Source of the DNA: Spinacia oleracea
Lineage: Eukaryota; Streptophyta; Magnoliopsida; Caryophyllales; Amaranthaceae
Assembly (NCBI RefSeq): GCF_020520425.1
Contig: NC_079491.1
Coordinates: 46,552,027-46,616,026, forward strand
Length of the DNA stretch: 64,000 nt
Direction of reading: 5' to 3'
In this document: positions 2,092-57,935 of the stretch, in pieces
Layout of the letters: every line of letters starts with the position of its first letter
Position numbering within the stretch: position 1 is the stretch's first letter
Program-made: the position numbers and the translations under genes
The notes under the pieces: generated by a model
Database searches by the model: none
Told to the model about the DNA's origin: nothing
Seen by the model: the letters and a program-made list of their open reading frames with translations, nothing else

Positions 2092-3489
2092 TGTGAGGTT
2101 ATGATACATATGACAAAACATAAATCATGCAGAAAAACCATAAAGCCAGGAAACATATTATTTACACATAATCATTTAGCATAATTTAGATGCATACACT
2201 TTGTAGCGTGCCCTCCCTAGCTGCGCCCGAACCGAACAAGAACAAGTCTTTAGGACTCCAAGTGTCGTCCCTCCGTAGATAGTCCACAGCACGTCCGGAT
2301 CCGCCTTAAGCTTGACCAACTAGAATCGCCCTTAAGGTTACTAGGATTTTCGACTATTTGGGTTGCAAGTGTTTGGCTGATTTTTGCTTGAAAATCTTAC
2401 CTTTTGAATACTTCAAATCTCGATATAAATTGTGAAACCATGCCACATATTTATAGGGGTATGGAAAGAGAATTGGAATCCTACTAGGATACGAATTAAT
2501 TAAATTAGAATCCTAGTAGAACTCTTATTTAATTAATTTATCTTTTAGGATTAGGAATTTAATCATATATCGAATCCTGATAGCTTTAGGATTCGTTTAG
2601 CACGCACACGAGCATCGCACGAGCACCGCACACTCGCGCAGGCCTTGCGGCCCACGCTGAGCGCACAGCGCCTCGGCCCATGCTTGATGCCTGTGTCCGC
2701 GCGCGCGCCCAAGGCCTTGGCTGGGCCTGGCCTTGCGCTGGGCCTGGCGAGGCTGTGGCCTTTGTGTTGGGCGCTTGGCTTGCTGGGCGCGGGCCTGGCT
2801 TCGTGCTGGGCCTTCGTCTAGCAAGCCTCGTCCGATGCTAATTCGTACGATGCGCTTCCGATTAAATTTCCGGTTCCGGAATTCATTTCCGATACGAACA
2901 ATATTTAATATTTCCGATTCCAGAATTAATTTCCGTTTCGAACAAATATTTAATATTTTCGTTTCCGGAATTATTTTCCGATTCCGATAATATTTCCGAT
3001 TCTGACAATATTTCCGTTTCCGGCAATATTTCCGATTCCGGTAATATTTCCATTTCCGATAATATTTTCCGATACGTACCATGTTTCCATTTCCGGCAAC
3101 ATCTACGACTTGGATAATATTTATATTTCCGATACGATCCATATTTCCCTTACCGGCAATATCATCGTTTCCGGAGTATTCATTTCTTGCTTGTGACGAT
3201 CTCAGCTCCCACTGAAAGCAAGATCCGTCGATTCCGAATATCCATAGATGGAGTATTTAATTCCATTAAATACTTGATCCATTTACGTACTATTTGTGTG
3301 ACCCTACGGGTTCAGTCAAGAGTAAGCTGTGGATTAATATAATTAATTCCACTTGAACTGAAGCGGCCTCTAGCTAGGCATTCAGCTCACTTAATCTCAC
3401 TGAATTATTAACTTGTTAATTAATACTGAACCGCATTTATTAGACTTAACATTAAATGCATACTTGGACCAAGGGCATTATTTCCTTCA
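2092..3489 (-). mobile_element. 5' LTR of a Ty1/copia-like retrotransposon, about 1.4 kb
   Basis: On the minus strand the LTR begins TGAAGGAAATAATGCCC at 3489 and ends CTCACA at 2092, giving the expected TG...CA termini, and is followed directly by a primer binding site. It contains a GC-rich block (about 2600-2850) and a run of degenerate TTCCG repeats (about 2860-3175). The LTR interrupts a LINE coding sequence whose open frame resumes at exactly 3490, so the retrotransposon is younger than the LINE. The matching 3' LTR and the other target duplication would lie beyond the left edge. The copia assignment is inferred from the PBS and LTR style. Confidence 0.7.
2860..3175. repeat. Degenerate TTCCG / AATATTTCCGATTCCGG repeats inside the LTR
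   Basis: The plus strand shows many imperfect units of the form AATATTTCCGATTCCGG, about 12-24 bp apart. They lie within the LTR. A 181-codon minus-strand ORF across them is a by-product of the repeats. Confidence 0.75.
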
Positions 3490-5432
3490 GACAAGACAGA
3501 AGTAGCCTTCAGTAAATGTGTGTCTGTTGAATCAACACAAGAGATTATTGATACTTTAGGGGTGCGAGAAGTCGAAAAGCATGAAAAATATTTGGGCCTC
3601 CCTAAAATTATAGGGAGATCTAAAAAAGCTGTATTTGCGTGTTTAAAGGAGAGGATATGGAAAAAACTGAATGGATGGAAGGAGAAGTTACTTTCAAGAC
3701 CGGGAAAGGAGGTACTCATCAAGGCGGTTGCACAAGCAATACCTACGTATATGATGAGTATCTTTAAAATTCCATATGGATTAATTGATGAAATACACTC
3801 TTTGTTGAGTCGATTTTGGTGGGGGTCTAGGGAGGATGCTCGTAGACTACATTGGCAAAGTTGGGAGAAGTTATGTGTTCCAAAAGCTAAGGGAGGTCTG
3901 GGATTTAGGGACTTACGATGCTTCAATCATGCCTTATTGGCAAAGCAAATCTGGAGATTACAAAATAATACGGGTACCCTACTACATTCTATTCTTAAAG
4001 CTAGATACTTCAAGAATTCGTGTGTTATTGATGCCTATCGTGGGTATGATCCAAGCTATTCATGGAGGAGTATGTGGGGTGCAAAGTCGTTGTTACGTGA
4101 TGGTCTAGCATGGCGTGTGGGAGATGGAACAAATATAAATGTGCGGGATGATCCTTGGATTATAAAGGATGGTCAGGTGCTTTCTCTTACCCCAATACCA
4201 ACGTGTGATAAGGAAATGAGAGTGTGTGACTTAATAAATCATGCTTCTGGTGAGTGGGATTTGGAGTGTATTGAGGCTTTGTTTCCTGCAAAGGTACGTA
4301 TCATAATAACTGCTATACCTTTATCTAAAAGGCTCCCTGTTGATGAATTATTTTGGAGGCAAGCTAAAGATGGTGTTTACACCGTAAAATCTGGATATTG
4401 GCTAGCAAAGTCGGGTGATGTTGTAGGAAATGGCGTTGATGGAAGTTAGAGGAGGATGAAATGTGGCGTACTGTATGGAGTCTAGATGGTCCACCGAAAA
4501 TGCGGCATTTTTTATGGAGTGCGTGCAAAGGTAATATGGCCGTGAGAGACAGATTGGTTCATAGACATATTACGAGTATAGCATTGTGTCCTATATGCGG
4601 AGCTGCCTCGGAGACCATTATACACTCCTTATTCGAGTGTGAAGCGGCAATATCGATATGGCAGCAATGTGATATAGCATCATGTTTGGTAGGTGCTCCC
4701 TCGACGACTTTTGCGGATAGATGGTTGTGGTTGGCTAGAAAATGTAGTGCCAAGGAACTATGTTACTTAGCCTCGCTTATGTGGGATGTTTGGAGGTGTA
4801 GGAATTTGATTTTCTTCGACAACGACAAGCCTAATTTTGTGATGATTGCAGCGGGTTTTAAGAGGCTAGTCGAGGAGTATCAGGAGTACTCAAAGAAGGT
4901 CTTTGCAAGTGGGATGGCTGGTAGTACTAGAACGAGTATTGGGGTTGGTTGATCTTGGTCTTGTCCTCCAATGGGCTATGTAAAAGTTAACACCGATGCA
5001 TATGTACCTGGTATGGGTAATGTTGGTTTGGGTGTGGTAATACGCAATGCTGAGGGTGCCTTAATGGCTGCCGCAAAGAAGGAAGTAAGTGCTACAACTC
5101 CAGAGATTGCTGAAGCTTTGGCGGTACGGTATGGTTTGCAAATGGCTAGACGACTTGGTTTTGATAGTATATTGATAGAATGTGATGCTATAAATGTGGT
5201 CAATGAGACGAAGTGTTCGAGTAGGGGTCTTTCCCCAATCCATCTGATCTACGGAGACATTAGACAAGATAGCTTGCTTTTTGAATCTTTTAATATTTCT
5301 CATATTAGACGGGCATGTAATACGGTAGCTCACTTAGTGGCAAGGTGGGATACTAATAATCATACAGAACTTGTTTGTATTGGCGTTTTTCCGCAAAGTA
5401 TAACAACTTTAGCGGAAATTGACTTACATTAA
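3490..5432 (+). pseudogene. LINE (non-LTR retrotransposon) polyprotein, C-terminal half, disrupted
   Basis: This is the 3' half of a plant L1-type LINE ORF2. The frame is open from the LTR junction at 3490 (DKTEVAFSKC) to a stop at 4447. It carries the region downstream of the RT catalytic core, with YLGLP, FWWGS and KGGLGFRDL blocks typical of the family. A shift to another frame near 4440-4461 is followed by the zf-RVT zinc-knuckle region (PPKMRHFLW, then CPICG and HSLFEC). A TGA at 4950-4952 interrupts this before an RNase H domain at about 4971-5432. That domain shows NTDA, AEALA, ECDA and an NTVAH block, matching the acidic residues and C-terminal block of plant RVT_3 domains. One frameshift, one in-frame stop and a missing 5' half make it inactive. 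Confidence 0.9.
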
Positions 5433-5773: not shown

Positions 5774-6206
5774 TATAATAATTGTTGTCTCTAAATAATC
5801 ATGCTCTGACTTTGTTCCAATCGGTTGATTGTTTTCCGTATGAAAATAGTATATGTTGCAAATTAGCATCACACTCCCCTTAAGTGGCTGACATTAGTTA
5901 TTTAATTTTTTTTGTTTGATAAAATTTGATTAATTTAATTTTGAGCGAGGGTATTATGGATTATTCTATAGCCCTATAAGACAGACACTGAAAAGTTAAA
6001 TGTCGTAATGACCTCATAAATTCTCTTATAGAATAAAGATAAGTCAAATGTTGAGGACTTTGATGTCCATATAATTAAGATGTCAAATCTGCCCTTATTT
6101 CTTTAATTTTAAATTTTTAAATAATGATACAAGATTATTTGATTACAATTTTACCATATTTGATGGGCACGTAATTTAGAAGTGTGCTTATTAATAATGC
6201 TCCACA
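5774..6206. other. Intergenic, AT-rich; nothing recognised
   Basis: There is no ORF of note, no RNA gene and no convincing transposon terminus. It lies between the LINE-associated repeats and the putative Helitron 5' end. Confidence 0.5.
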
Positions 6207-9200
6207 TCCTAACACTTTAAAAAGCACAAACTTCACATTACTATTGCAGCAATAGTGCGCTGCCCATTTTGCCCTCACCTATCTCCACTTATTACTCCTT
6301 TGCCATTACATCCAGATCGTGACACGTCGCAGCTTCATCCACCGCCCTTTTTGTCTTCTTCTCTCTGTTCCGTCTTCAGCTCCCTTCCTCATTTTTTTGT
6401 TGGTTGCTTTCTCTCTTTCGCCCTTTCGGTCCTTCCATGACTGATCTTCCTTTCATTTTTCAGTTTAGTGATTTTTTTGCTTTTGTTGTCCATTGCTTTC
6501 GAAGGAGCCGCAGTAAGGTTTCCATTAACACCTTGGATGATTCTAAATGCAAAATCCAATTGACAACAATCAGTTGGGCTTTGGAATCATCTAAGGTTTT
6601 ATTGGAGGTCTTAGAATTATTGGAATCGTTCTTGCTCAGATCTTCTTCAGATCTGTAATGATTGTTCCGGCGAATTCCGTAAGGCAGTTCGTGTGCGTTC
6701 TCTCCTGGATCTGGTCTGTTTCTTTGGGTTTTTCCTTTTTTCCGATTCGATGGTTCTTACATTTGCTTCCTCTTTTTTTCGATTGTTCTTTGGGTTTCTT
6801 TGTTTAAATCTAGATCGATTTTTGTTCATTTGTTCGTGTGCGTTCTCTCTTGGATCTGGTCTGTTTTCTTTGGGTTTTTCCTTTTTTTTCGATTTGATGG
6901 TTCTTACATTTGCTTCCTTTTTTTCCCTGGTTCGATGGTTCTTTGGGTTTCTTTGTTTAAATCTAGATTGATTTTTGTTCATTTTAATAAATACTGAGGA
7001 ACAATTATTATGAATACATTTTCATATTCATATTAATAATCGGTTCTTAATATGATCTTGGTTTAGCAAATTCAGTTCCTGCATTTTTGTGTTCTGGGTA
7101 CAACATCTTCAGTAGAAATAAATGTTCAGATGTTTCTGGTTTTTTGTGTTCTGGGTAGAACAGCTTGTCATCATTTGTTATGGTTTGGTGTTCTAGCTAA
7201 CTTATAATTTCTAAATGGTCTAGATTTAATACCCTGCAGATTCGCATCTCCAATTCAATCTACTTCGATCATTATTTGCGATTTCATTTGCATTTTAGTT
7301 GGTTTATATTTGGTGGTTTTGTTCTTATTTATGCTTTTTAGGTCAGGTTTGGGTGTTTGATTGTTACAGGTTTATTATCCATGCTAGGTTAGATTAGTAT
7401 GCAAATTAGTGTTTTTGGTTAATAGTGTGATAACTGTGCAAATTAGTATGAAAATGAACCATTAGCAGGTTAAATACAGGTTCATATTTTCGTTTTCATA
7501 ATCATTTTGTTTTATGTTCAGGCTCCCTTTGTTGACAAGTTCAGATAAGAGAAGGGATGGCATGTAGTGTGAGGCCTATGCAATGTCCCTCATTTGAAGG
7601 GAAACACTGCTGCCTAAACAGTATGTATTGTACTTTTATTACTGTGTGTGTTTAAAGAAATGCATTCAAAGTGCACAATTGTACTGCCTATTTCCTTTTT
7701 TTTTTTTCCTGTATTCTTTTAAATGGTCAGTCCCAATGTGCCTGAAATCCTGGCTTAATTTTGAAAACCTTTTTTTTTTTTACTGTTGTTGTTCTTAGGT
7801 GGCTTCTTTTGCTGTGCATCTGGTGCTATATATTGATTGTTTCCTTCTTCAACTTTAATTGGTCTTTTGTTCTTTCACTATTTTCTCTTTCTTTTTTTCA
7901 GAATAGGATCCAGGCAAGAAAGGTATAGGCTCTCTCTTGGTTTCTCTTGGCTACTGTGGTTTGCAGTATATGAATATGGACTACCTACATTTTAACCACA
8001 CCTAATAATCTACTTCCCATGGACATTTAGCAATCCCTGATATGACATAGTTCGGCCATTTAAACAAATGTACTCATGAAAGATCTCCCGTTGTTTGCTT
8101 TCCCTAATCTTAGGTCCTTGTGAGTTTGCAATATGTGATAGGTGTTTTTCCCTGTTGTTATTTTCTGTTCTCATTGTTTGGTTGTAAAATTATGTGCCTT
8201 TTTTTTTTGTCAAGAGCATCATGAGCTTTGCCTCTGGTCAGTTCCCCCGTGTCTGTTGTGAGTGCATTTTGTTTGCTCCCGTGTTTACTGTGCCTTTGAC
8301 GTGCCTGTTAATGGCATTCCTTGTGTGTGCGTTTGTTGCCTGGCCTGAAATTGTATGCAACGCTCTTGGTTTGAGGGGATCTGGTCCTTTTGTCTATGAA
8401 TGTTTAGGATGTTTACATTGCAAAGTGGCTCTGAAACTGGTTGCAATTGCCCTATGTTTGTTTGTATGGTTTACTCCCAGGACTGCCTGCTAACACATTT
8501 GGTTTTTGTGTTCAGTCTTGTTTTGAGTCGGAGTTGTTTAGTTTGTTTCAGACTATTACTTCTGGTCCCGTTTGGGGAATCGTTTTTGCTGTAGTGTCAG
8601 GGAAAAATGGTTGAACTAATGTTGGGGAGTACATGGTATTTGGTGCATGGATTTGTAACCTATCGTGCCACTTATTTGTGTGTGCGGCTTCTTTTGGGGT
8701 TATAGTTAAGGTTTGGCATGTATGCTTGTTCGAATCTGCCCGTTGTAAATGTTTAATTGTTCGCCTATATGCATGTAGTCATGTTGCTTGTCGAGCGGTT
8801 AATGTTGCTTACCTAGAGCGGTTAATGTGATTGGTCTGATATTATTCATAACAGGTTGGGTCATTCATAGTCCCATGAATACATAACACTTTTACAGAGA
8901 CAAGTAGCGTCTTAGCTAACTGATCACTATTCATTGCTTTCAGTTACCATTTGCTCGTATAATGTATAGATTGACTAAGAGGGAAGATCTTTGCACATTG
9001 GACAGACTACACTTAACTGTTTAGAATACCACAAAGTCTAAGGATCAATATAAACCATGCAATATATTTAGTATGAAGAGAAAACATCTTTGTCGTCCTC
9101 TATAAGGTCATAGATATATACCCTTTGGTTCCCTTTTGCAATCAGTCCATACATTTAAGGTAATCAATCCCTAGATTTCATTTTGAATGTTTCAGAGATT

Positions 9201-9308
9201 AGAATCAGACACCTATGTTTTCTAACTTTGGTCTTCCAGAGCTCATCAGACCATGATTATACTCATACAGTCAATTGGCAAATCATAATTATTGATTCCT
9301 TCTAACAG
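6207..9308. other. 5' part of the Helitron-like element: no recognised coding exon
   Basis: From about 6250 to 6650 the sequence is CT-rich, like a plant 5' UTR. After that come T-rich, intron-like stretches. The longest plus-strand ORF (8194-8493) is Cys/Phe/Val-rich with no recognisable domain, and I judge it spurious. If the RPA1-like gene has N-terminal exons they should be here, but I could not identify any. Confidence 0.4.
6685..6983 (+). repeat. Tandem duplication of about 150 bp
   Basis: A block from GTTCGTGTGCGTTCTCTC to AATCTAGATCGATTTTTG (about 6685-6832) is repeated next door (about 6833-6983) with small indels in T runs and a few substitutions. It lies in the UTR-like 5' part of the Helitron-like element. 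Confidence 0.85.
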
Positions 9309-10939
9309 AACACCAACACTCTCCAAGAGGAGCGCCCTTGGTTAAAAGTGTGTATCCCTGATGCAAGACTTGAGAAAGTACATGCTTATCTTGGTTGCCC
9401 TAACTGTGGTAAGTCAACAACTGCTCCCCTTGGTGAGGCTTTTAAGTGTGGCACCTGCTCCAGGATAGGCGTTATATCCACTCCTAGGTTTGTCACTTAT
9501 AAGACGCTTGCAATCGTTTACATTCTGCTGTCACAACCTCCAATGTGTTTGTTGCTTATAGATCACTTTTATTCATTTATGTTCCATCCTCAATGCAGAA
9601 TCACTTTCAACTGCGAAGTTTCAGATGACACGGGCACATATGCCTTCACAACCTTCACCGAGGATTCTGAAAGACTTTTCAGAATGACTGCTGCTGATCT
9701 TTTCAGGATGAAACACACTGTAAGTTTATTTACATCGCCCAAAATGATGCTTGGTAACCAGCCAGCAACCCCTAACCAGACTGGCATACTTGTCTCCCCA
9801 TTTCCAAAACCCCTATTACCATGTCATGCTTAATAATGCACCCACAAATAGAATACCTTATACATATCTACCTGGTACATCACCTACAACATGCAAAACA
9901 AACTACTTCCATTACACACTGTTTCCAGTTTTTTATCAACTTCACTTTACAAGTCATTTACGTGTGTTCAGTCCACACATGAAGATAACCTATCAATAAC
10001 TAACAAAGCACGTGTGTTTACCTCTTCGTTGGACATACCCAGCTGACACGTACAAGTGCACCTAATAATACCTATCTCAGACATAATAATAGTACAAATG
10101 ATACACCACATATGCATGTTCGTTCCCATGTATACCACAACCTAACACGACTAAGTGTATACTGTAAGTTTTTTGCTTTTGCTCTTTTAATCCAGTAAAA
10201 AAAAAACCATGCTCCTGTCAATGAATGCGAAAAGAAAAATGTATTAATGTTCATTGCTTGAGTGTTATGATGCCTTCATCTGATTCTCTATACGTATTCT
10301 TCTCACTAAAATGGCATACATCCCTCTTCCTTCCAGGGTGATCTACAGACTTTCATGGTTGCACGCAAATTGCTCCGCACTAAGCATTTCTTCATTCAAG
10401 TCGGGCCAACAACATCTCTGTCCACATGCAATGTGTTGCAATGGTGCTTGAAGAAAGTAGAAATTGAGGATGATGACATGGAGCATGTCCACCCAGCTGA
10501 TAACACTCAAGCAGAGAATGTTGTTGAAACAGAGATGGCCACTGAAGGAGATGCAAACACACAGAATCTCCCTTTGAATGCTGGCCATGCAGATCCAGAA
10601 GATTACACCAATGCTGATCCTTTAGATGCTGAAAATGCGGCTACAGAGGCTGCTGAGACAGAGGTTTCCACTGAACGAGATGCAAACACACAAAATCTCC
10701 CTTTGAATGCTGGCCATGCAGATCCAGAAGATTACACCAATGCTGATCCTTTAGATGCTGAAAATGCGGCTACAGAGGCTGCTGAGACAGAGGTTTCCAC
10801 TGAACGAGATGCAAACACACAAAATCTCCCTTTGAATGCTGGCCATGCAGATCCAGACGATTACACCAATGATGATCCTTTAGATGCTGAAAATGCGGCT
10901 ACAGAGGCTGATCATGATGATGACACTTCAGAGGAATGA
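9309..10939 (+). CDS. RPA1-like protein (replication protein A 70-kDa subunit, C-terminal domain), partial
   Basis: Three exons join in frame: 9309-9487, 9599-9719 and 10337-10939, with AG/GT borders. Exon 1 opens NTNTLQEERPWLK and carries a zinc ribbon (GCPNCGKS ... CGTCSRIG), as in the RPA1 C-terminal OB fold. Exon 2 gives ITFNCEVSDDTGTYAFTTF, the OB-fold strand pattern of that domain. Exon 3 completes the fold and then runs into an acidic tail of three 43-residue repeats ending DDDTSEE. RPA1 binds single-stranded DNA in replication and repair; RPA-like genes are also carried by plant Helitrons, which suits its position. N-terminal DNA-binding domains A and B and a start codon were not found, so this is either a fragment or a gene whose upstream exons I missed. 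Confidence 0.7.
10523..10909 (+). repeat. Three in-frame 129-bp tandem repeats (43 aa each)
   Basis: The copies are 10523-10651, 10652-10780 and 10781-10909. Each encodes a unit containing DANTQNLPLNAGHADP and ending DAENAATEA. Copies 2 and 3 are almost identical; copy 1 differs at its start (ETEMATEG rather than ETEVSTER). The unit keeps frame and is acidic and probably disordered, extending the C-terminal tail of the RPA1-like protein. Confidence 0.95.
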
Positions 10940-12607
10940 CTGTACCCTGCCCCCCTTTTGTCTGACATGCTAATTGCAACTGCGTATGTATAAAAAAGCA
11001 CTTGCAAGCATGTTCTCAGTGGCTACTTATAAGCCTATCTTAGCTTTAACAAACTGGTTTATGTAATATTAAGTTAACTCTAGGTCTTTTGAATGTGGTT
11101 TTTCTAGAGGAACATGTAAGAGTTTAGAAACTCATATTCCTAGAAAATACACGTAAGCCTTTTGGTATGTAGATGTGCCCAAGTCGTTAATCTTAGAACT
11201 ATCAGTGGCACAGGTATTATCAATATATGTGTGTTTTATATTATCTAAAGAGCCCAACTCATCATTGAGCATACAAGAGTGACCCTAAAAAGGATGCCCA
11301 TGGTCAGCAAAAGTTAGCCATTCATGTCACACTTTGAGGCATGAAAGCAACTTCATGAGCATGCATAAGAAGTTCACAGTTTATGTTGTCTCTCACATTT
11401 ATTCGAATATTCAGGTATGCCAAGTGACTTTATTGCCCTTTTTTATTTTAAAATAAGGGACACACAACTAGCAAAATGGGCATGTGTGTAGTTTTTCTCA
11501 TGTGGCCTTTTTTGCTTGTTATGATATTATCTTGTTGCTGATTGATTTTGTTGCCTTTTTCTTCCAGGGAAGTCCAAAAGGTGTCACACCTAAGTTCAGC
11601 TTGATAGAACTTCTCTTGTTGATTGGGTGAAAGAACTTCTCTTGTTGATTGGGTAATGTCTTAAACTTCTCCTCCATATATTTATTTGTGTTTCTGTCAC
11701 ATTTGTCTGGCCATCAGGACAGTTTTGTTGAGAAACTTGGGTTCCTTAAAGCAGTTGCCTTAGTAGAAAGATATTGAAGTAATAGAACTATCTAAAAATT
11801 AAAAAATCAGGTCACCTATTACTTCATTTGGAAGACTTAGATATATCTCCTTGGTAGCTTTACTTTAAATATGATTTCCCTTTGGCAGTAATTTGGAAAG
11901 AGTCATAATGATCAAGGCTGGGAAGGAATGGCTCTAGATGATTGCACATATGCTTATCAGTCTCACATTAATTTGGAATGACAAGAGGCTTGAGCAGGTA
12001 TAATCAGATTTGTAAAGAAGTTATAACAATGATCCATATGTACTTATATCTTAGAAGCATGTAGCTTGGATATTTGTTGTCAGATCCGTAAGCAGAAATT
12101 AGTTGTTTTTGTTCTTACCACTATATATAAGGTAGATTTTGTACGTGTTATTTAAAGCTGTTGATACCTCCCGTAGATATTCTTTTATGTGGTTATCTTA
12201 TCAGCAATAAGAAATTTAGATGATATTTGACATACACATGGTGGAAATTTCAGTGTTTTTATAATCTCCTGTGCGTTAGTTTCCTTTGTGTTAGCTTCTT
12301 ACATTCATCTATTATACTAAATTGCTCATTGATCTCTGGTGCGATTTCCTATGTCTACCACAATGTTTGTAGATACAACTTCAATGTTATAATTTCAGTG
12401 TCATAGTTCTATTCAAGACCAGGTTTATATTATAGAATTGGCTTTTAATTTGCGAATGGGTTATAGACTTATAAAATGGGTTTTACTCATATACCATGTT
12501 CCTCATATAGAACAAGTTTGTGTTGATGGTATTCTTTGTTTGGCCATTTCATTTATCCTATCTGGATTTGTAATTCTAATGGATCATGCTATCAACTTTT
12601 CTTTCAG
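10940..12607. other. Interior of the Helitron-like element; no recognised gene
   Basis: This is intron- or UTR-like sequence with no supported exon. It holds one short direct repeat, AGAACTTCTCTTGTTGATTG, at about 11606 and 11632 (period 26 bp). Confidence 0.45.
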
Positions 12608-12802
12608 ATCATCACGACATACTTGTTGGGAATTTGAGCCCTGAGGTTACAAATGCTACCTTGTTCGCATGCTTCTCTCCTTATCAAACCTGCTCGTAAT
12701 ACGCTTTTCATCCTTTGAACTTACCATTTAGGCAACTTTTTCATATCCCATTGTTGGTGGGCACTCCAGGGGTTTTGGATTCGTTTTATTGGAAGCCAAC
12801 AG
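12608..12802 (+). pseudogene. UBP1/TIA-1-like RRM exon fragments (captured)
   Basis: Two exon-like pieces are bounded by splice-like AG and GT dinucleotides. The first, 12608-12695, reads HHDILVGNLSPEVTNATLFA and on through CF, which strongly resembles the RNP2 region of the second RRM of plant oligouridylate-binding protein UBP1. The second, about 12750-12802, reads GGHSRGFGFVLLEAN, matching the RNP1 block (RGFGFV) of the same RRM. UBP1 proteins bind U-rich pre-mRNA in the nucleus. The intervening part of the RRM and the rest of the gene are absent, so this is a scrap rather than a working gene. It lies inside the Helitron-like element and in its orientation, consistent with exon capture. 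Confidence 0.65.
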
Positions 12803-13518
12803 GTATGACGGAGTAATTGTTTTATGTATTTACGTATTTAATGGTATGTTTGATAATATATCATGATTTATGTAGTTATATGCAAATCTGACCTTCTGTG
12901 ACTCATGGTAATGCCGCGTGCACTTTGTGAAAATATCGACTCGAATATCAAAGTTGTGAACTGCCTAGCTAACTGTGAGGTAATGTTTCTCATCATCCCT
13001 TCACTTTTTGTTGGATATTAAAGTTCTAATAAATCATGTCATTGTTCCTAATTTTGTGAGAGTTTCTCATTAATGATGACGTTTAACACCTTTGCATTTG
13101 TCTTATTCCATTCCATAGAAATGTTATAAATTTGCATTCCTTTTCACTGAAACCTACCAACTTTTTTGGGTGGAGTGGTTAGATAAGAAAAATTGTGATA
13201 TTTGCAAGTGATTAAGATATCTTTGGATAGTTTAGTGGTTAGTATCTATTTGATTTCCCTATTGTATAAGAGGAAAGGTGGCAAATCAAGGTGATCCAAT
13301 GACTCTACTAAGTAAGATGGACAGATGGGACTGTATTGTTTAATAGAAGACTTAAATGAATCTGATGCATATCAGAAGAGTTTATTAGTGACATTAGACG
13401 ATCAATGTATCACAACAAAATTATGTGGTGCCTATTTAAGGTAGTGTGCGATGAATGATTTATGTGCTTTTTTCAGGGTGGTGTACATAGTTGTGACATT
13501 TTCAATGTTCAATTGCAG

Positions 13519-13615
13519 TTTAAGGAGATGGGTGGGAGGATCAGGGCCCTGGATCAGTCTGCAGAGAACAAGAAAGGTTTTGCTGACTGGATGAACAAGC
13601 TAAAACCTGTCAATG
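13519..13615 (+). pseudogene. Exon-like fragment of an unidentified conserved gene
   Basis: After an acceptor-like TTGCAG the frame reads FKEMGGRIRALDQSAENKKG followed by FADWMNKLKPVNE, which has the composition of a real protein exon. It faintly recalls the region before the FYVE domain of plant FREE1-type proteins, but I cannot confirm that. No donor follows and the frame soon becomes low-complexity Phe/Leu. Just upstream, 12907-12978 is another possible exon scrap (ending NIKVVNCLANCE before GTAATG), also unidentified. Confidence 0.4.
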
Positions 13616-13730
13616 AACTGTTATTTTGGTCAAGCGGCATTCCTTATTCTGAACTATTCTTTCTTTTCCCCATTCTTGAATTCTTTTTCTTCTTCGATAA
13701 ATAGAGATATGTGATTCCTGTTGTCATTTT

Positions 13731-13835
13731 GTCAAGCCGCACATTCTTATGCATCCTGATGATCACCTAATCCTGGAGGATGAAAGTGGAAGAGTTAAGC
13801 TGGAGGATCTACACTTTTTCCTTCTGTTTATGTGA
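13731..13835 (+). pseudogene. DNA polymerase delta small subunit (POLD2)-like exon fragment
   Basis: The frame reads VKPHILMHPDDHLILEDESG then RVKLEDL before a TGA. The LEDESGRVKL block is characteristic of the OB-fold region of DNA polymerase delta subunit 2 (p50), a nuclear replication factor. Only this one exon-sized piece is present, so it is probably a captured fragment inside the Helitron-like element, on the same strand as the RPA1-like and UBP1-like pieces. Confidence 0.5.
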
Positions 13836-14370
13836 CATGATTTTTTTTTATCCTTGCGTTCCCGGGAGCAGAGAAATTTTAGCTATACAACACCACCCCC
13901 TCAATAACAAGAATCTCCTCAGGTACTTTAATTTAGGGCTTTTTATCTAATGAATTGTTTTAGCTTAATTTTTCTTCAATTTTTATTCTTGAGATGAGAT
14001 ATGTACAATATATGTAGGCTACCTGATGCTAGAATTTGTATGTTGATCATGATTTTAGGTTAGGGAAAGAAGAATTTGTTATTGTTGTGTGATGTGTCAG
14101 CTGATTTTGTTTTTGTTAAACTTCGTAAAAGATGATGATCAATGTTATGGAGATATCAATTAGTTGCGGCTGAAACTAAGCGATCATTGCAGATTCTGTT
14201 TCTTTGTAACCTGTATTATATTTGGTTTTTGTGTGTGTTGAAAATGAGCGCTTTCTTTGAAATCTGCAATTGCCTTTAAAGCTTCAAGTAATTTCTGGCC
14301 CGATTACTAGGCAGGGCACTGTAACTCATTCATAACATTGTATAATTAGAGTAATGCTTGCTCTTGAATT

Positions 14371-14568
14371 ATGCAGGTTACAAATGGTGTACTGTTCATA
14401 GCTTCAAACTGCAGCATCGGAAATGTTTATCAGTATGATCCTAACTTCGAGTCTTCAGTGTTCGATACCATACAGCTCAAAATCAACAAAGCGTGCAACA
14501 TCCGCTGCAATAACGCCTACACATCTGCAATCATCAAGATAAAGGGTCAATTACATTGCCCTATTTAA
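14371..14568 (+). other. Small ORF (65 aa), unidentified, near the Helitron 3' end
   Basis: The ORF follows an acceptor-like ATGCAG and reads VTNGVLFIASNCSIGNVYQY near its start, with five Cys in all. Its composition looks protein-like rather than random, but I recognise no family. It may be a last exon of a captured gene or part of Helitron-encoded sequence. Confidence 0.3.
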
Positions 14569-14739
14569 ATGCATGTATACAATTAAACCATATGCATTAC
14601 AAATACATCAGTTTTAACTGCATCATTATTACATTAATACATCAGTTTGGTTATTAGCTACATTTTCACATTTGACCATTCATATATAACCCGATTTTTT
14701 ACCTACGCGTTTTAGCATAAATTCTCCGTATATCTTGGG

Positions 14740-14774
14740 GGACCGTGCGCGCTAGCGCACGGTCCAACAACTAG
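14740..14774 (+). other. Helitron 3' terminus: hairpin plus CTAG
   Basis: GGACCGTGCGC (14740-14750), loop GCTA and GCGCACGGTCC (14755-14765) form a perfect 11-bp stem. After AACAA comes CTAG (14771-14774), with T as the next host base. This is the textbook transposition terminator of Helitrons. Confidence 0.9.
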
Positions 14775-15430
14775 TAAAGAAAAAGTGCAAATATATATAT
14801 CAGTAGCAAAATTTAGTTATTGTTAGGCCTTGGTTTTCACCTTAGTTTTACTGAACTCAAATTATTTTTGTTGAACTTATATAAATTACTGAACTTAAGC
14901 ACAGTCCGACACGAACACGAAGTCGTGGCTAAGCTCAAGTCGCATTTTTTTCCGAAAAAACACGACATAGCACAACTTAAATAATAAATTACGTTAAATC
15001 GAGTGAAATTAGACTCGACACGACACGAGGGCATGTGGACCAGCACGTGGACCAGGGCTGTTCATGGTAATTTTATTTTTTTAATTTTTTGATCGGTCTG
15101 GCCGATACGAAACAAATTCAAACATAAGACATGTGAGCTCCCTTTAAATACAGAGATATCTCAAGATGATTCACTATTCACGAGCATGGTAATCGAGTTT
15201 AACTCCACCTAACTCAGCTCATAAAAATCTCGATCTGAGCTCAAGCCATTTTGGGCCATTATTTATCACTTTGTCAATATATACTTCATGATATATCCCC
15301 AAGAGATTCTATTAGAATTAAACCTGAAACGGCATATGCTGTTATGGCATTAAATACTGAAAGTCAACGATGACTGCTAAGTCCTAAGAAAATCAATCCC
15401 ATTTCTTAATACTCTGTACTATTATTGGCC
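14775..15430. other. Intergenic region upstream of the acid phosphatase gene
   Basis: AT-rich sequence with no supported gene. It presumably contains the promoter of the phosphatase gene, but I see no convincing TATA box and do not assign one. Confidence 0.4.
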
Positions 15431-48308: not shown

Positions 48309-49105
48309 TTGGGAAATGTTCTAATTATGTTTAGGAGGGGTTTGAAGCTCCCTAATGTTGCTGAAAATTCAATATGAATTGATATGAGTCTATATTGGTT
48401 GTTGTTAGGTGGAGAATTCTCCGTAGGCGACTTTTGAATTATTAAAGTGGTCTCGCATTTTGTTTACACAAGGTACGTACATACCTGTGTGCTTGGAGAT
48501 GTGTGTTGTTTGTTGAAACCATATTGAAATTGTTGATGAACTTGGTTATGTTGAAATTACATGTTTAATATTGTTGGATGGACATGTTGAACATATATTT
48601 CGTTATGAGAATTATAACATGTTAGTATGGATGATTGATGCAAATATGTTTGTTGGGAACACTAGATTATTTTTTATATATATTGATCTAGATCGATTGG
48701 TCGTTGTTCCCTTTTAGCATTTCACTACTTTATGAGGGCCGAGGACCTTGTTTAGTAAGTTGAACCTTATACCCATATAGAGGGGTTGATCTTTATTAAA
48801 GGAAAGGTTGAATTAATTGGAATGAGTCTTGATTGATACAATTGTGATCACTTACTTAATTCCAAGATAAAAACAGTTGTGATTAATGGTTGATTGTATG
48901 ACTTATGTGATTGTGGAGTCATAACAGGGTTCCAATTTGTAAATCATGTAAAGTGAAACTGAGTAGCAATAGCTTTAGACTGTGCACGTCTGAAGTGACG
49001 GACAATCAGAAGTTGGGGTCATAGGTTGCCTATGGCTTTTCCCGGGCCGGATTGATCACCGGTTCTATTTCAGTCAAACGTTCCTCGATATCGCAGGTCA
49101 TTGGG

Positions 49106-52100
49106 TGTAACACCCCGACAATTCTCCGTTTTCTAAAATAACCCTTTTTATTAATACTCCCTCCGTATTTATTTAAGAGATACACTTGGCTGGGCACGGG
49201 TTTTAAGAAGAAGAATTGAATGAAATAAAGTAATAAAACAAGTGGAGTTGGATAGATATTTTAATAAGTAAAACAAGTGGGGACCATACATTTTAGACAG
49301 TGGGAGGTGGGGTGTAGTTATGAAATTATTTGTTTAATAGAGTGGTGGGACATAAGATATATTAAATAGATTATTTAATTAGATAGTGGGTTGATAAGTT
49401 ACTAAAAATAGCAAGTGTATCTCTTAAATAAATACGGCCGGAAAAGGCAAGTGTATCTCTTAAATAAATACGGAGGGAGTATAACTATAGAGAATTATCA
49501 AGGCATTATCGCCCGTGTGAAAACGTAACGGCTTATTCAGAATTTTGCAGCGGAAAACATATAACTAACTTTAGATTTATAAATAATCAATTACAGAATT
49601 AATCCCAAAAACCAATCAACGAAATTTAGGAAATATAAATAATATGACAAGTTTAAAGTCCAAATTAACAAACCCAAGTTACTTAGCAAAACAAAACAAA
49701 TACAAGCTCTCTAATCTCGATCCCAATGATGCATCATCTTCAAACCTGTAGATGGCAACGCTTATTGATCCTTAGAGACTGCTCACCACAAATGGGTCAT
49801 CACAGGATCAATAAGGCATAGCCATGATCAACACACACAAAAAAGCACGTAATCAGCAAAGCTGAGTACTACATACTAAAACAATAAAAATCCTAACATG
49901 ATACTATTAAACGAACAATCCTAACATGACACTAATAAAACATAAGCAAGGATAACCAAAACATATTGACTTGAAGACTATATTTGACTGAACTAGACCT
50001 TTGTATCATTAAAATTATTTTAATTGAAATAGTCAATGGACTGAGTTGCTACTAGAAGCTTTCACTAAGGAAGACGAGGTACGGGCGCGACTCCGTAACC
50101 TCAATGACCTGCGATATCGAGGAACGTTTGACTGAAATAGAACTGGTGATCAATCCGGCCCCGGGAAAAGCGATAGGCAACCTATGACCCCAACTCCTGA
50201 TTGTCCGTCACTTCAGACGTGCACAGTCTAAAGCTATTGCTACTCAGTTTCACTTTACATGATTTACAGATTAAAACTCTGTTATGACTCAACGATCACA
50301 TAAGTCATACAATCAACAATTAATCACAACTGTTTTTACCTTGGAATTAAGTAAGTGATCACAAAGGTGTCAATCAAGACTTATTCCAATTAATTCAACC
50401 TTTCCTTTAATACTGATCAACCCTCTATATGGGTATAAGGTTTCAACTTACTAAACAAGGTCCTCAGCCCTCATAAAGTAGTGAAAATCTAAAAGGGAAC
50501 AATGATCAATCGATCTGAATCAATGTATATAACATAATCTAGTGTTCCCAACCAACATGTTTGCATCAATCATTTACTAACATGTTATAATTCTCTTAAC
50601 GAAATATATATTCAACATGTCCATCCAACAATATTAAACATGTAAATTTCAACATAACCAAGTTCATCAACAATTTCAACATGGTTTCAACAAAGAACAC
50701 ACATCTCCAAGCACACAGGTATGTACGTACCTTGTGTAAACAAACTAATACGTCACTTTCACACTTTTAAAGGTCGCCTAAAGAGAATTCTCCGCCTAAA
50801 ACAACCAACAAATAATCCCAATGAATCTCTAATCATTCGCAACCACAATAAAGCATTCTAAATGCATCCTAAACATATGTAGGACCTTCCCTAACATTAA
50901 AACTTGAAAATTTGATTTCCTAGCATCATAATTATTGAATTAGTGATTGAAATTCGTTGAAAACTCTTCGCAAACATTATACTTTAAATTTCCAGCAATA
51001 TAAAATAATTTTAAACGTCCACAAAACATAATCAACGTTCTTAAAATCATAAAAATAATAGCTTTAATAATATATAATCATTCTATTATGATTAAAGCCA
51101 TTAAAACCTTAAATTTCATGCTTTAAATAATTAAAACTCTTATTTCAATTCAATTATGTAATCTGAAAATTAAATTATTAATTAAGCATAATATATAATC
51201 TAAAAATCTAACTTAATCATAAAAACTTATAATTTATATTCAAGAAACATGAAATAAATTAATAAAACTTCATTAAAACCCTAACTTAATGTAAGTAACA
51301 AATCTGAAAATAATTAAATTAATTTCAACAACATATAATCTGAAATTCATAACTAAATCATAAAAATCATAAATTTAATTCAACCCAAACATAAATTAAA
51401 TTAATAACATATAATTAAAACATTTAATTTACTTAGGGTTTAAGAAATAACCAAATAAGGAGAGAAAAGTGGGCGGCCGGCGGTCAGAGGCACGGCGGCG
51501 CGACAGCGGTTGCGGTTGGGCTGGTGGTTGTTGTCGAACAAAAACCGCGATTAAGGGGAGAGCGGAAACCGAATCCAAATCAAAGAAAACGAAAGAGGAG
51601 CTTAAAGAGAAAGGGAAGAGAAGGAGGGGAGACTACCGTGTAGTCGGTGGTTAAGCACCGGAAAGGTTCTCGTGGCGGCTATGCTGGCGGCAAGCACGGT
51701 GGTCGTGATGTTGCGTGCCGGTGGTGCTTTGCAAGAAACAAAACAGAGAGCCGGTGAGTGAGGGAAACAAGACTACGAAAGAGACAAAGAAACACGAGGG
51801 GAGAGCGAGAGAGTTACCGGCAGCGGGGAGGACGACGGTGGTCCGGTGGCCGGTGGCGGCGGCTGGGCAACAAGCAAGCAATGGAGGTTGAGGGTTGAGT
51901 TTTTTTTTTTACGTGAAAGAGAGGAAGGAGGAAAAATAACGTAAATTGTATGTGGGTTTGAGAGGAGTGAAACTTTTGAGTCAATTTTGGGTTTTATCTA
52001 TTTGGGTTTTCCAAAATTGGGCTATGATTAGGATTTGGGTTTGAGTGTATGAATCAAAAACCGATTCGGGTTGTTTTCTGAATTCGAATTCTTTTCAAAG

Positions 52101-52274
52101 TAAAATTCAAAACTATTTTGATTTCATAAATCGTTAAATATTTAGAACGTAATTAAAATAAAATAAATATACGTTAATTATATATTTATTACTAAAATTC
52201 ATAAATTCTATTTAAATATAAATAATATACGTTAAAATATATTAATAAAATTTATAAATTTACGGGGGATTACA
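49106..52274 (-). mobile_element. Inner solo LTR (minus orientation), same family as the outer LTR
   Basis: On the minus strand it starts TGTAATCCCCCGTAAATTTA at 52274 and ends GAATTGTCGGGGTGTTACA at 49106. TTGGG flanks both sides (49101-49105, 52275-52279). The whole sequence is recognisable in reverse in the outer LTR, for example GTCCGTCACTTCAGACGTGC at about 50200 against its complement at about 49000. A GC-rich block at about 51470-51880 is non-coding LTR sequence. Confidence 0.9.
49157..49479. mobile_element. Stowaway-like MITE (323 bp) inside the inner solo LTR
   Basis: The ends are CTCCCTCCGTATTTATTTAA and TTAAATAAATACGGAGGGAG, with TA on both sides. The outer LTR carries the uninterrupted site (AAATATAACTATAG near 52895 on the plus strand). 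It has the same doubled right end (CGGCCGGAAAAGG between two copies) as the MITE at 46633. Confidence 0.95.
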
Positions 52275-53980
52275 TTGGGGTTACGGAGTCGCGCCCGTAC
52301 CTCGTCTTCCTTAGTGAAGGCTTCTAGTAGCAACTCGGTCCATTGACTATTTCAATTAAAATAATGTTAATGATACAAAGGTCTAGTTCAGTCAAATATA
52401 GTCTTCAAGTCAATATGTTTTGGTTATCCTTACTTATGTTTTATTAGTATCATGTTAGGGTTGTTCGTTTGATAGAATCATGTTAGGATTATTATTGTTT
52501 TAGTATGTAGTACTCAGCTTTGCTGATTACGTGCTTTGTTTGTGTGTGTTGATCATGGCTATGCCTTATTCATCTTGTGATGATCCATTTTGGTGAGCAG
52601 TCTCTAAGGATCAATAAGCGTTGTCCATCTACAGGTTTGAAGATGATGCATCATTGGGAACGGGATTAGAGAGCTTGTATTCATTTTGTTTTACTAAGTA
52701 ACTTGGGTTTGTTAATTTGGACTTTAAACTTGTCGTACTATTTACCTTTCCTTATTTTTGTTGACTGGTTTTTGGGATTAAATCTGTAATCGATTATTTA
52801 TAAACCTAAAGTTAGTTTTATGTTTTCCGCTGTAAAATTCTGAATAAGCCGTTACGTTTTCACACTGGCGATAATACTTCGATAATTCTCTATAGTTATA
52901 TTTATAAAAAGAGTTATTTTAGAAAAAGGAGAATTGTCGGGGTGTTACATTGGTGGACTTTTATTTGTAATTTGTGTTGTTTTTATGGTAGGAGTTATGA
53001 TTTTCAAGTGATTAAAGTAATTTTTGGGACGGGTGGGGTTGTTTTCGGTGGGGGGTTGGTGGTTTTGTGGTAGATAAGCTAGATTTTTGGTGATGAAAAT
53101 GGTGGTTTCGTGGTGGTTTTGAGGGAGTTGGAGTAGGTTTTCGGTGGTGGTTGGGTATCCCGGAGGTGGCTGGGTGGTTTTAAGGGAGTTGGAGTAAGTT
53201 TCCGATGGTGGTTCGGCAATTTTGAGGGAGTTGTAGTAGGTTTCCGATGGTGGTTGGGTGGTTCCGGCGGTGGCTGGGTGGTTTCGGCGGTGGCTGGGTG
53301 GTGCCGGAGGTGGTTGGGTGTTGGTTGGACACTTTAACGACATCACCGGTGGTGGTAGTGGTGTTAGCCGGTGGGTGGTGTGGTTATAGAGATAGTCAAT
53401 GGTGGTCAAAGTGGTAGTTGCGTTAGTTGGGTGATGAGGACTTTGGGGGTAAGGATGATTCCTTGGGGGGGTGTGGGGAATGAAGGTAGAGGAAAATTGG
53501 GGAATCATGAGGGTAAAGGGAATGATTGGTTTGGTCTAACAAACAACAATAAAGGGAATCAAGGTAGTTGATTGCCTTTCGCTTTGATGAATACCCCCAA
53601 CCAAACGGCCCCTTAAATAGTTCATGTCGGTCAGACCGTCATATCTCAATTTGAATCTCATCTTCTCTCGCATTAATTTTTTTTCCACTGATAAGTTGTA
53701 CTCTATCTGTTCCAAAATATTGTTCCCGTTTCTATTCCGGGCGTTTCTAAATATTTCTCCCAGTTGGAATCTATGCTATTTTTGGACATATTTTTTTTCC
53801 CAAAATACCTTTATATTCTCTTCTATTTACCAAAATACCTAAAGATTCTGCCCAAATTTTAACCTAAACTTCCCAACCTCTATTATTTAATTTATTTCCC
53901 TTCCCCATAAACACACTTCCCCACCCCCTTTAAACCCATCCCTTTCACGATCTCTCACCTCATTTCTCACCTTACCTCTC

Positions 53981-57464: not shown

Positions 57465-57539
57465 ATTTGTGATTAATATAGAAACAAAATGGTCAATGAT
57501 GTACGTCAACTAAACTGAGATTGAAACCCTATGTTCCTA

Positions 57540-57935
57540 TGTTCGCTTGTGATTATGTTGCCTTCATGATTATGCTGTCTTGCTGATTATGTTGCCTTGA
57601 TGATTGTAGCTCATTTTCAGATCAATTTTCAGGTCAACTAAATTGAGATTGAAACCATACATTGCTATTTTCACTTATGATTATGTTGCCTTGATGATTG
57701 TAATGCCTTGATGATTATGCTGCCTTGCTGATTATGTTGCCTTGATGATTGTAATGCTTTGATGATTATGCTGCCTTGATGATTGTAATGCCTTGATGAT
57801 TATGCTACATTGTTGATTATGTTTCCTTGATAATGTATGCATGTCCCCTGCCTTCATGATAATGTTTCCTTCATAATGTATGCATGTCCCCTGCGTTGAT
57901 GATAATGGTGCCTTGATGATTATGAGAGTTGTGAA
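57540..57935 (+). repeat. 17-bp minisatellite
   Basis: Units CCTTGATGATTATGCTG and variants (CCTTGCTGATTATGTTG, CCTTGATGATTGTAATG) are repeated in two blocks, broken by a diverged segment at about 57600-57665. Confidence 0.85.

Follow-up and report, generated by a model that had tools for sequence, protein, structure and literature searches.

How does one Helitron gather pieces of many unlinked genes? This old question is raised by an element in the genome of spinach (Spinacia oleracea), which occupies positions 6207 to 14774 on the plus strand of a 64,000-nucleotide stretch of DNA (C5:46552027-46616026), hereafter called the window. The element was evaluated by means of own-genome searches (894,210,420 bases in 242 contigs) and comparison with its relatives. 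According to the results, this part of the window is very probably a non-autonomous Helitron of a Rep/helicase- and RPA-bearing family, which has lost about 8.1 kb and which carries an array of gene pieces, mostly a subset of the array of another Helitron.

Termini of the Helitron

The element is a Helitron, and both termini proposed in a preliminary description of the window, a 5' TC end and a textbook hairpin-CTAG 3' end, were correct. The 5' TC follows an A, and a GC-rich hairpin lies shortly before the CTRR motif, which is followed by T, as in canonical plant Helitrons. The same 5' end was present at independent loci of the genome. For the search with 6150-6420, in which 40 of 162 candidates were scored, the match began exactly at 6206 (target A) in 25 of the 40 non-self rows listed, within 6200-6206 in 35 and elsewhere in 5. 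Of nine loci (L041-L049), seven had the identical first 21 bases, TCCTAACACTTTAAAAAGCAC, after left flanks that differed, and one had a variant; the ninth contributed no 5'-end reading.

The 3' end reads GGACCGTGCGC-GCTA-GCGCACGGTCC-AACAA-CTAG and then T, with a stem of 11 bp and a loop of 4 nt (AACAACTAG before the T). When both strands of the window were scanned, it was the sole hairpin-CTRR-T site with a perfect stem of at least 7, and 30 first-order Markov randomisations of the window gave one such site in total, with a stem of 8. The stretch 14600-14774 was matched at no fewer than 39 other places in the genome (40 of 708 candidates scored, with a query that ended at 14774). After the query was extended beyond the 3' end, the matches to ten loci (L009-L018) ended at 14775-14798, and the right flanks of the compared loci diverged from the T after CTAG onward.

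Family copies and internal deletion

Three near-identical relatives were found in different flanks, namely copies of about 12.8 kb at C1:59.92-59.94 Mb, about 16.6 kb at C2:76.34-76.36 Mb and about 24 kb at C4:182.11-182.14 Mb (the C1, C2 and C4 copies). Each matched the window at 100% at either end, the match at the 3' end of the C4 copy covering 134 of 175 bases, and A and T bordered all four copies of the family. The window and the C2 copy were 99.35% identical over 6206-8805 and 99.24% identical over 8838-14776. The C1 copy differed from the window by 6, 13 and 0 mismatches in three collinear stretches, that is, by 19 in 6583 alignment columns. Such high identity means a recent spread. At a substitution rate of about 7e-9 per site and year, taken from other plants, the spread would date, as a rough figure, to about 0.2 million years ago.

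The C2 copy held about 8.1 kb of extra sequence between window positions 8805 and 8838, including a helicase gene and upstream RPA exons; hence, the window copy is an internal deletion derivative. The scar consists of a short duplication of GCGGTTAATGT, after which GATTGGTCTG is joined to ATATTATTC. Position 8838 had itself been considered as the 5' end, as the similarity of the longer copies started there when they were first compared. It was ruled out by the common left flank of these copies and by the matches to the end at 6207, which indicated an internal deletion. The C1 copy lacks 12315-14278 through a separate internal deletion and was considered as a state that preceded the capture. 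This candidate was rejected: the C1 copy retains 11955-12314 and 14279-14299 of the captured block, so its gap is a later deletion. A further stretch of the C1 copy, which is absent from the C2 copy, contains a 406-residue open frame (L010 817-2034) that resembles double-stranded RNA-binding domains by eye and had no significant Pfam match.

Rep, helicase and RPA genes of the family

Both a Rep protein (HUH) and a Pif1-type helicase are encoded by the family. In the part missing from the window, the C2 copy encodes a Pif1-like helicase (PF05970, 1.8e-65) in a frame of 625 residues, and the C4 copy has a Helitron_like_N (Rep) match of 1.5e-56 in a 1116-residue open frame between both element ends. 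Judging from the collinearity with the C2 copy, the C4 Rep frame would lie at about the expected start of the helicase gene. An older copy at C2:31.56 Mb has an internal Rep match containing one stop. The 24-kb relative (C4:182113575-182137613), with this long and open Rep frame, has lost one arm of the hairpin at its 3' end.

The preliminary description had reported an RPA1-like segment on the plus strand among captured host pieces. The segment is indeed there, with an RPA C-terminal domain (PF08646) at 7.6e-7 unjoined and 5.2e-11 with three exons joined; these exons have splice-like borders and are in frame. Its origin is another matter. An RPA-like gene beside Rep and helicase genes is the mark of the RPA-bearing (PHRPA) type of plant Helitron, and the family has this arrangement, with upstream OB-fold exons that were weakly matched. 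If the segment had been captured from a host gene like the other pieces, its exons and its relation to RPA1 would be explained. However, the same gene occurs with upstream exons in a longer copy, in one element together with a helicase gene, and it occurs in older relatives that do not have the captured array (L012 and L013). Its exons are conserved in comparison with L013, with dN 0.085 and dS 0.236, and the introns were about 70-72% identical without gaps. Plant Helitrons with an RPA gene of their own are reported in the accounts of PMC4683698 and PMC3288121. Because plant Helitrons carry such a gene, and because longer and older copies share it, the segment is most likely an RPA gene of the Helitron itself, cut in half so that the 3' part remains, and its capture from the host is hardly credible.

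Captured gene array and its donor-like loci

The captured array extends over about 11500-14299, between the RPA gene and the 3' end (Table 1). Its host gene pieces had donor-like loci in the same genome at 79-94% identity, as exon capture would leave them. The domains of the donors were recovered at or near these loci. Exons neighbouring the phosphoglycerate kinase (PGK) piece at its locus matched PF00162 (6.5e-22 and 1.8e-37), the receptor-like kinase locus matched PF00069 (2.1e-36), a nearby exon of the FLU locus matched the solved FLU structure (3.4e-23), and a nearby exon of the KDM3-type demethylase locus gave a match of 7.3e-22. For 12197-12351, an 83% match with the kinase-type locus L063 was set aside, as the 91% match to the FLU locus covers this stretch. 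The exon that had been left without a name at about 13403-13617 came from a FYVE zinc-finger gene (nearby exon of the donor-like locus, PF01363, 1.2e-10); a query with this exon found no match among solved structures. The POLD2-like exon, also recognised in the preliminary description, matched PF18018 at 9.4e-4, below the cut-off of that family, and its donor-like locus matched at 3e-10.

The plus-strand RRM exons were likewise confirmed (PF00076, 2.4e-4 with two pieces joined), and TIA-1 was among the best structure matches; the gene is called UBP1/TIA-1-like here. About 69 bp, including the start of the second exon, are absent at 12758-12765 relative to L031, and a stop in the piece sits behind a splice donor. 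RRM-gene loci free of stops lie at C2:17.02 and C2:17.85 Mb. Five loci (L028-L031 and L036/L037) contain a repeat with the same RRM piece and no demethylase, FYVE or POLD2 piece; 2.1-3.2 kb was shared in the compared stretches, at about 96-99%. The RRM fragment may have a third mobile carrier in this repeat. The missing pieces had suggested that these loci were ancestors from before the capture, a reading weakened by the longer RRM sequence of the C1:95.21 Mb element.

The pieces include intron-like sequence; therefore, genomic DNA was taken. All eight donor-assigned pieces are in sense orientation to the element, as judged by the frame of the named gene for seven of them and by the open frame only for the unnamed gene. 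The splice-like borders that had been described were found at the RPA exons and at part of the captured exons; among the latter, several have been cut or shortened or contain a frameshift. The 63-residue open stretch near the 3' end returned only itself and three relatives from the own-genome search and had no solved-structure match. The deletion junction at 8806-8837, five further gene pieces and the assignment of RPA to the element had been overlooked before.

The sense orientation of all eight pieces and the splice sites retained by several of them are what would be seen if the Helitron had assembled a functional chimeric host gene. The details argue otherwise. The RPA-like frame terminates at its own stop ahead of the array, and the reading frame is not kept where the PGK exon meets the kinase exon. 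The RRM part is without the beginning of exon two, and compared with donor-like loci the FYVE exon is shorter and the POLD2 exon has a frameshift behind VKLE. A chimeric gene of this kind is extremely improbable, and nothing in the array as read here suggests a working host gene.

Table 1. Positions of the Helitron, its own parts and the captured pieces within the window.
Feature	Position	Strand	Remarks
Whole Helitron, internally deleted derivative	6207..14774	+	8568 bp; both ends common to many own-genome loci
5' terminus, TCCTAACACTTTAAAAAGCAC after A	6207..6227	+	end shared by own-genome loci with differing left flanks
5' part common to longer copies	6207..8805	+	99.35% to C2 copy, 99.6% to C1 copy
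Scar of an internal deletion of about 8.1 kb, short duplication of GCGGTTAATGT	8806..8837	+	comparison with C2 copy
RPA-like exon, zinc-ribbon part of C-terminal OB fold	9309..9487	+	
RPA-like exon, C-terminal OB fold	9599..9719	+	
Last RPA-like exon, acidic tail and stop (10937-10939)	10337..10939	+	in frame with preceding exons
Three in-frame tandem repeats of 129 nt (43 aa) in acidic tail	10522..10908	+	
PGK intron end and exon	11500..11604	+	94% to C1:102096202
Receptor-like kinase exon and intron	11606..11920	+	89% to C3:72507224 over 11626-11920
Block shared with a different Helitron	11955..14299	+	C1:95.21 Mb (99.5%) and its relative C6:16.15 Mb (98.9-99.5%)
FLU gene piece	11955..12519	+	91% to C4:148508784
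UBP1/TIA-1-like RRM gene piece	12516..12895	+	RRM PF00076
KDM3-type JmjC demethylase exon and intron	12905..13130	+	79% to C6:1782057
Piece without an assigned donor	13244..13410	+	collinear with RRM piece at the five RRM-repeat loci (L028-L031, L036/L037)
FYVE zinc-finger gene exon	13403..13617	+	C3:72807630, C6:72244456, C4:155325004
POLD2 exon and introns	13612..13890	+	84% to C6:120729236, 82% to C3:39878268
Piece of unnamed gene	13891..14298	+	83% to C3:11618282-11618691
Segment without an assigned source, 63-residue open stretch 14374-14562	14300..14556	+	in four family copies only
3' terminus: hairpin 14740-14765, AACAA, CTAG 14771-14774, then T	14740..14774	+	

Origin of the shared block

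A different Helitron, at C1:95.21 Mb, has most of the array in common with the window element, and the direction of the exchange was read from the outer donor pieces. Around the C1:95.21 Mb block, on the same strand, there is a 3' end that is 98% like the last 46 bases of the window element and a 5' end that is about 74% like that of the window. The FLU locus extends over at least 2065 bp there (with a gap at a TA repeat) versus 565 bp in the window, and the unnamed gene over at least 912 bp versus 408 bp. Moreover, 751 bp more is present between 12903 and 12904, with sequence of the RRM gene and the demethylase gene. With longer donor pieces at both edges and the additional 751 bp inside, the window block is a subset of the C1:95.21 Mb array. 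The transfer probably went from that lineage to the window family. The RRM sequence of the C1:95.21 Mb element is also longer than that of the five RRM-repeat loci, so that these need not be older than the capture.

The 99.5% identity of the block in both elements gives no direction by itself and would also be found if the window family had captured the block directly from host genes and then passed it to the C1:95.21 Mb Helitron. Against that order stand the longer donor pieces on either side of the block in the C1:95.21 Mb element and the 751 bp that it has in addition inside, as the window block is the subset, and direct capture is very unlikely. No window-family copy with longer outer donor pieces was found among the copies L009-L014. 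The older relatives L012, L013 and L014 had no match to 11470-14556 or more, and L012 has about 610 bp in its place. Hence, exon capture as first described holds for the array, whereas direct capture from the host seemingly does not hold for most of it: the block 11955-14299 was probably acquired second-hand from another Helitron.

Joins and proposed mechanism

Shared bases at the joins between pieces were read by eye. The count was restricted to joins flanked on either side by a donor-like locus, and those of the demethylase piece, the outer edges of the block and the 12903/12904 deletion did not enter it. The five joins counted had 4, 4, 4, 0-1 and about 2 shared bp. Under a simple random-join model, p = 8.8e-5 was obtained for three of five joins with at least 4 shared bp. 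At the join of the PGK and kinase pieces there is a 26-bp duplication (11602-11653), with which the kinase piece opens. The short shared bases and this duplication together fit repair copying of the filler-DNA kind, a model supported for insect Helitrons in the account of PMC6544945.

The following sequence of events is proposed. The window element would move by rolling-circle (peel-and-paste) transposition, with Rep and helicase supplied by relatives and with the 5' TC end and the 3' hairpin as its termini. Breaks within the element would be repaired by copying short stretches from elsewhere, through which gene pieces would enter as filler DNA, and the copied pieces would be joined at short shared sequences. 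Another Helitron may have served as one copy source and handed over a ready-made array.

Repair copying is moderately favoured as the route of the block 11955-14299. The block may also have passed between Helitrons by nesting, that is, insertion with later trimming, or by ectopic recombination. Nested Helitrons are described in maize (PMC3288121), and the outer block edges are without clear microhomology, as this route would allow. However, no second perfect-stem 3' end lies inside the element, though trimming or mutation would erase such an end, and the nesting or recombination route is considered rather unlikely.

Several observations weigh against the reading of the element as a whole. Among the open reading frames of at least 120 aa in the window copy there is neither a Rep nor a helicase frame, and no window Rep is among the matches listed, so that the copy relies on relatives in order to move. 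Transposition itself was not observed, and the empty site expected from the joined flanks, CTCCACA followed by TAAAGAAAA, was not found in the own genome, a single one. The two upstream RPA exons of the C2 copy, when joined, match the RPA-like DUF223 domain (PF02721) at 0.0077, below the cut-off, and the RPA gene compared with that of L012 gave a dN/dS of 0.80 on 19 changes, which is no sign of constraint. Regarding the array, no source was found in the own genome for 13131-13243, 13244-13410 and 14300-14556, and the donor-like loci are 79-94% identical, so that the genes actually copied may have been paralogues of them. For the C1:95.21 Mb element, there are two candidate 5' ends, the second lying another 9 kb outward. 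Finally, the 12903/12904 deletion and the outer block edges have no clear shared bases, and therefore end joining fits as well as copying.

Other features of the window

Pieces of a probable element of the long interspersed nuclear element (LINE) type lie at 3430-5432, with an RNase H-like domain at 4953-5432 (PF13456, 3e-23); the long open frame at 3430-4449 had no Pfam match and is LINE-like by eye only. Nested long inverted repeats with arms of 264-276 nt at 92-96% occupy 48431-52949. Their outer arms begin with TGTAACACCCCGACAATTCTCCG at 49106 and 52899, and the whole set has the look of DNA elements of the foldback type or with long terminal inverted repeats. A 17-bp repeat array is located at 57532-57851.

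Comparison with known Helitrons and significance

The element belongs with the gene-capturing, RPA-bearing plant Helitrons, a known kind. As described in PMC4683698, the rice Mothra family and its RPA-bearing "mother element" have the same TC and hairpin-CTAG ends, and an RPA homologue without RepHel beside sister elements with RepHel; the family likewise has tandem repeats and a gene fragment. Unlike what is described for Mothra, the RPA gene of the window copy was cut to its C-terminal half by a deletion, and pieces of about eight genes are present. Rep, helicase and RPA domains are also found in the putative autonomous form of maize helB (ZmhelB1/ZmhelB2) in the account of PMC3288121. The RPA domains of helB follow in the same open reading frame there, whereas the RPA-like part here is made up of spliced exons at a considerable distance from the helicase frame of the C2 copy. 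The gene-capturing Helitrons of maize presented in that account share internal losses, the stepwise collection of multiple fragments and nesting with the present case; unlike them as presented there, the multi-gene array here was traced to a portion of the array that another Helitron carries. Stepwise acquisition according to the filler DNA model is described for insect Hel1 (PMC6544945), with short shared sequences at the joins (2-13 bp there, 0-4 bp here). That description concerns short acquired regions and not a multi-gene exon array.

For annotators, the RPA gene of the family is a warning that an RPA gene borne by an element can be misread as a captured host gene. With respect to the question of how pieces of many unlinked genes come together, a single genome offers a series: there are RPA-Helitrons that have no array, another Helitron has a longer one, and in four copies the array is cut down, with a further deletion in one of them. 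Most of the array was seemingly taken from another transposon and not gene by gene from the host. Captured multi-gene arrays could then be transferable cassettes, built by one Helitron lineage and taken over as a sub-block by another through repair copying; the 5' ends of the window and C1:95.21 Mb elements, only about 74% alike, would mark them as different lineages. We regard this generalisation as evenly balanced between holding and failing. If it is true, it includes a bias towards sense orientation (8 of 8 donor-assigned pieces here), and exon combinations would spread between Helitron families faster than either family captures host genes.

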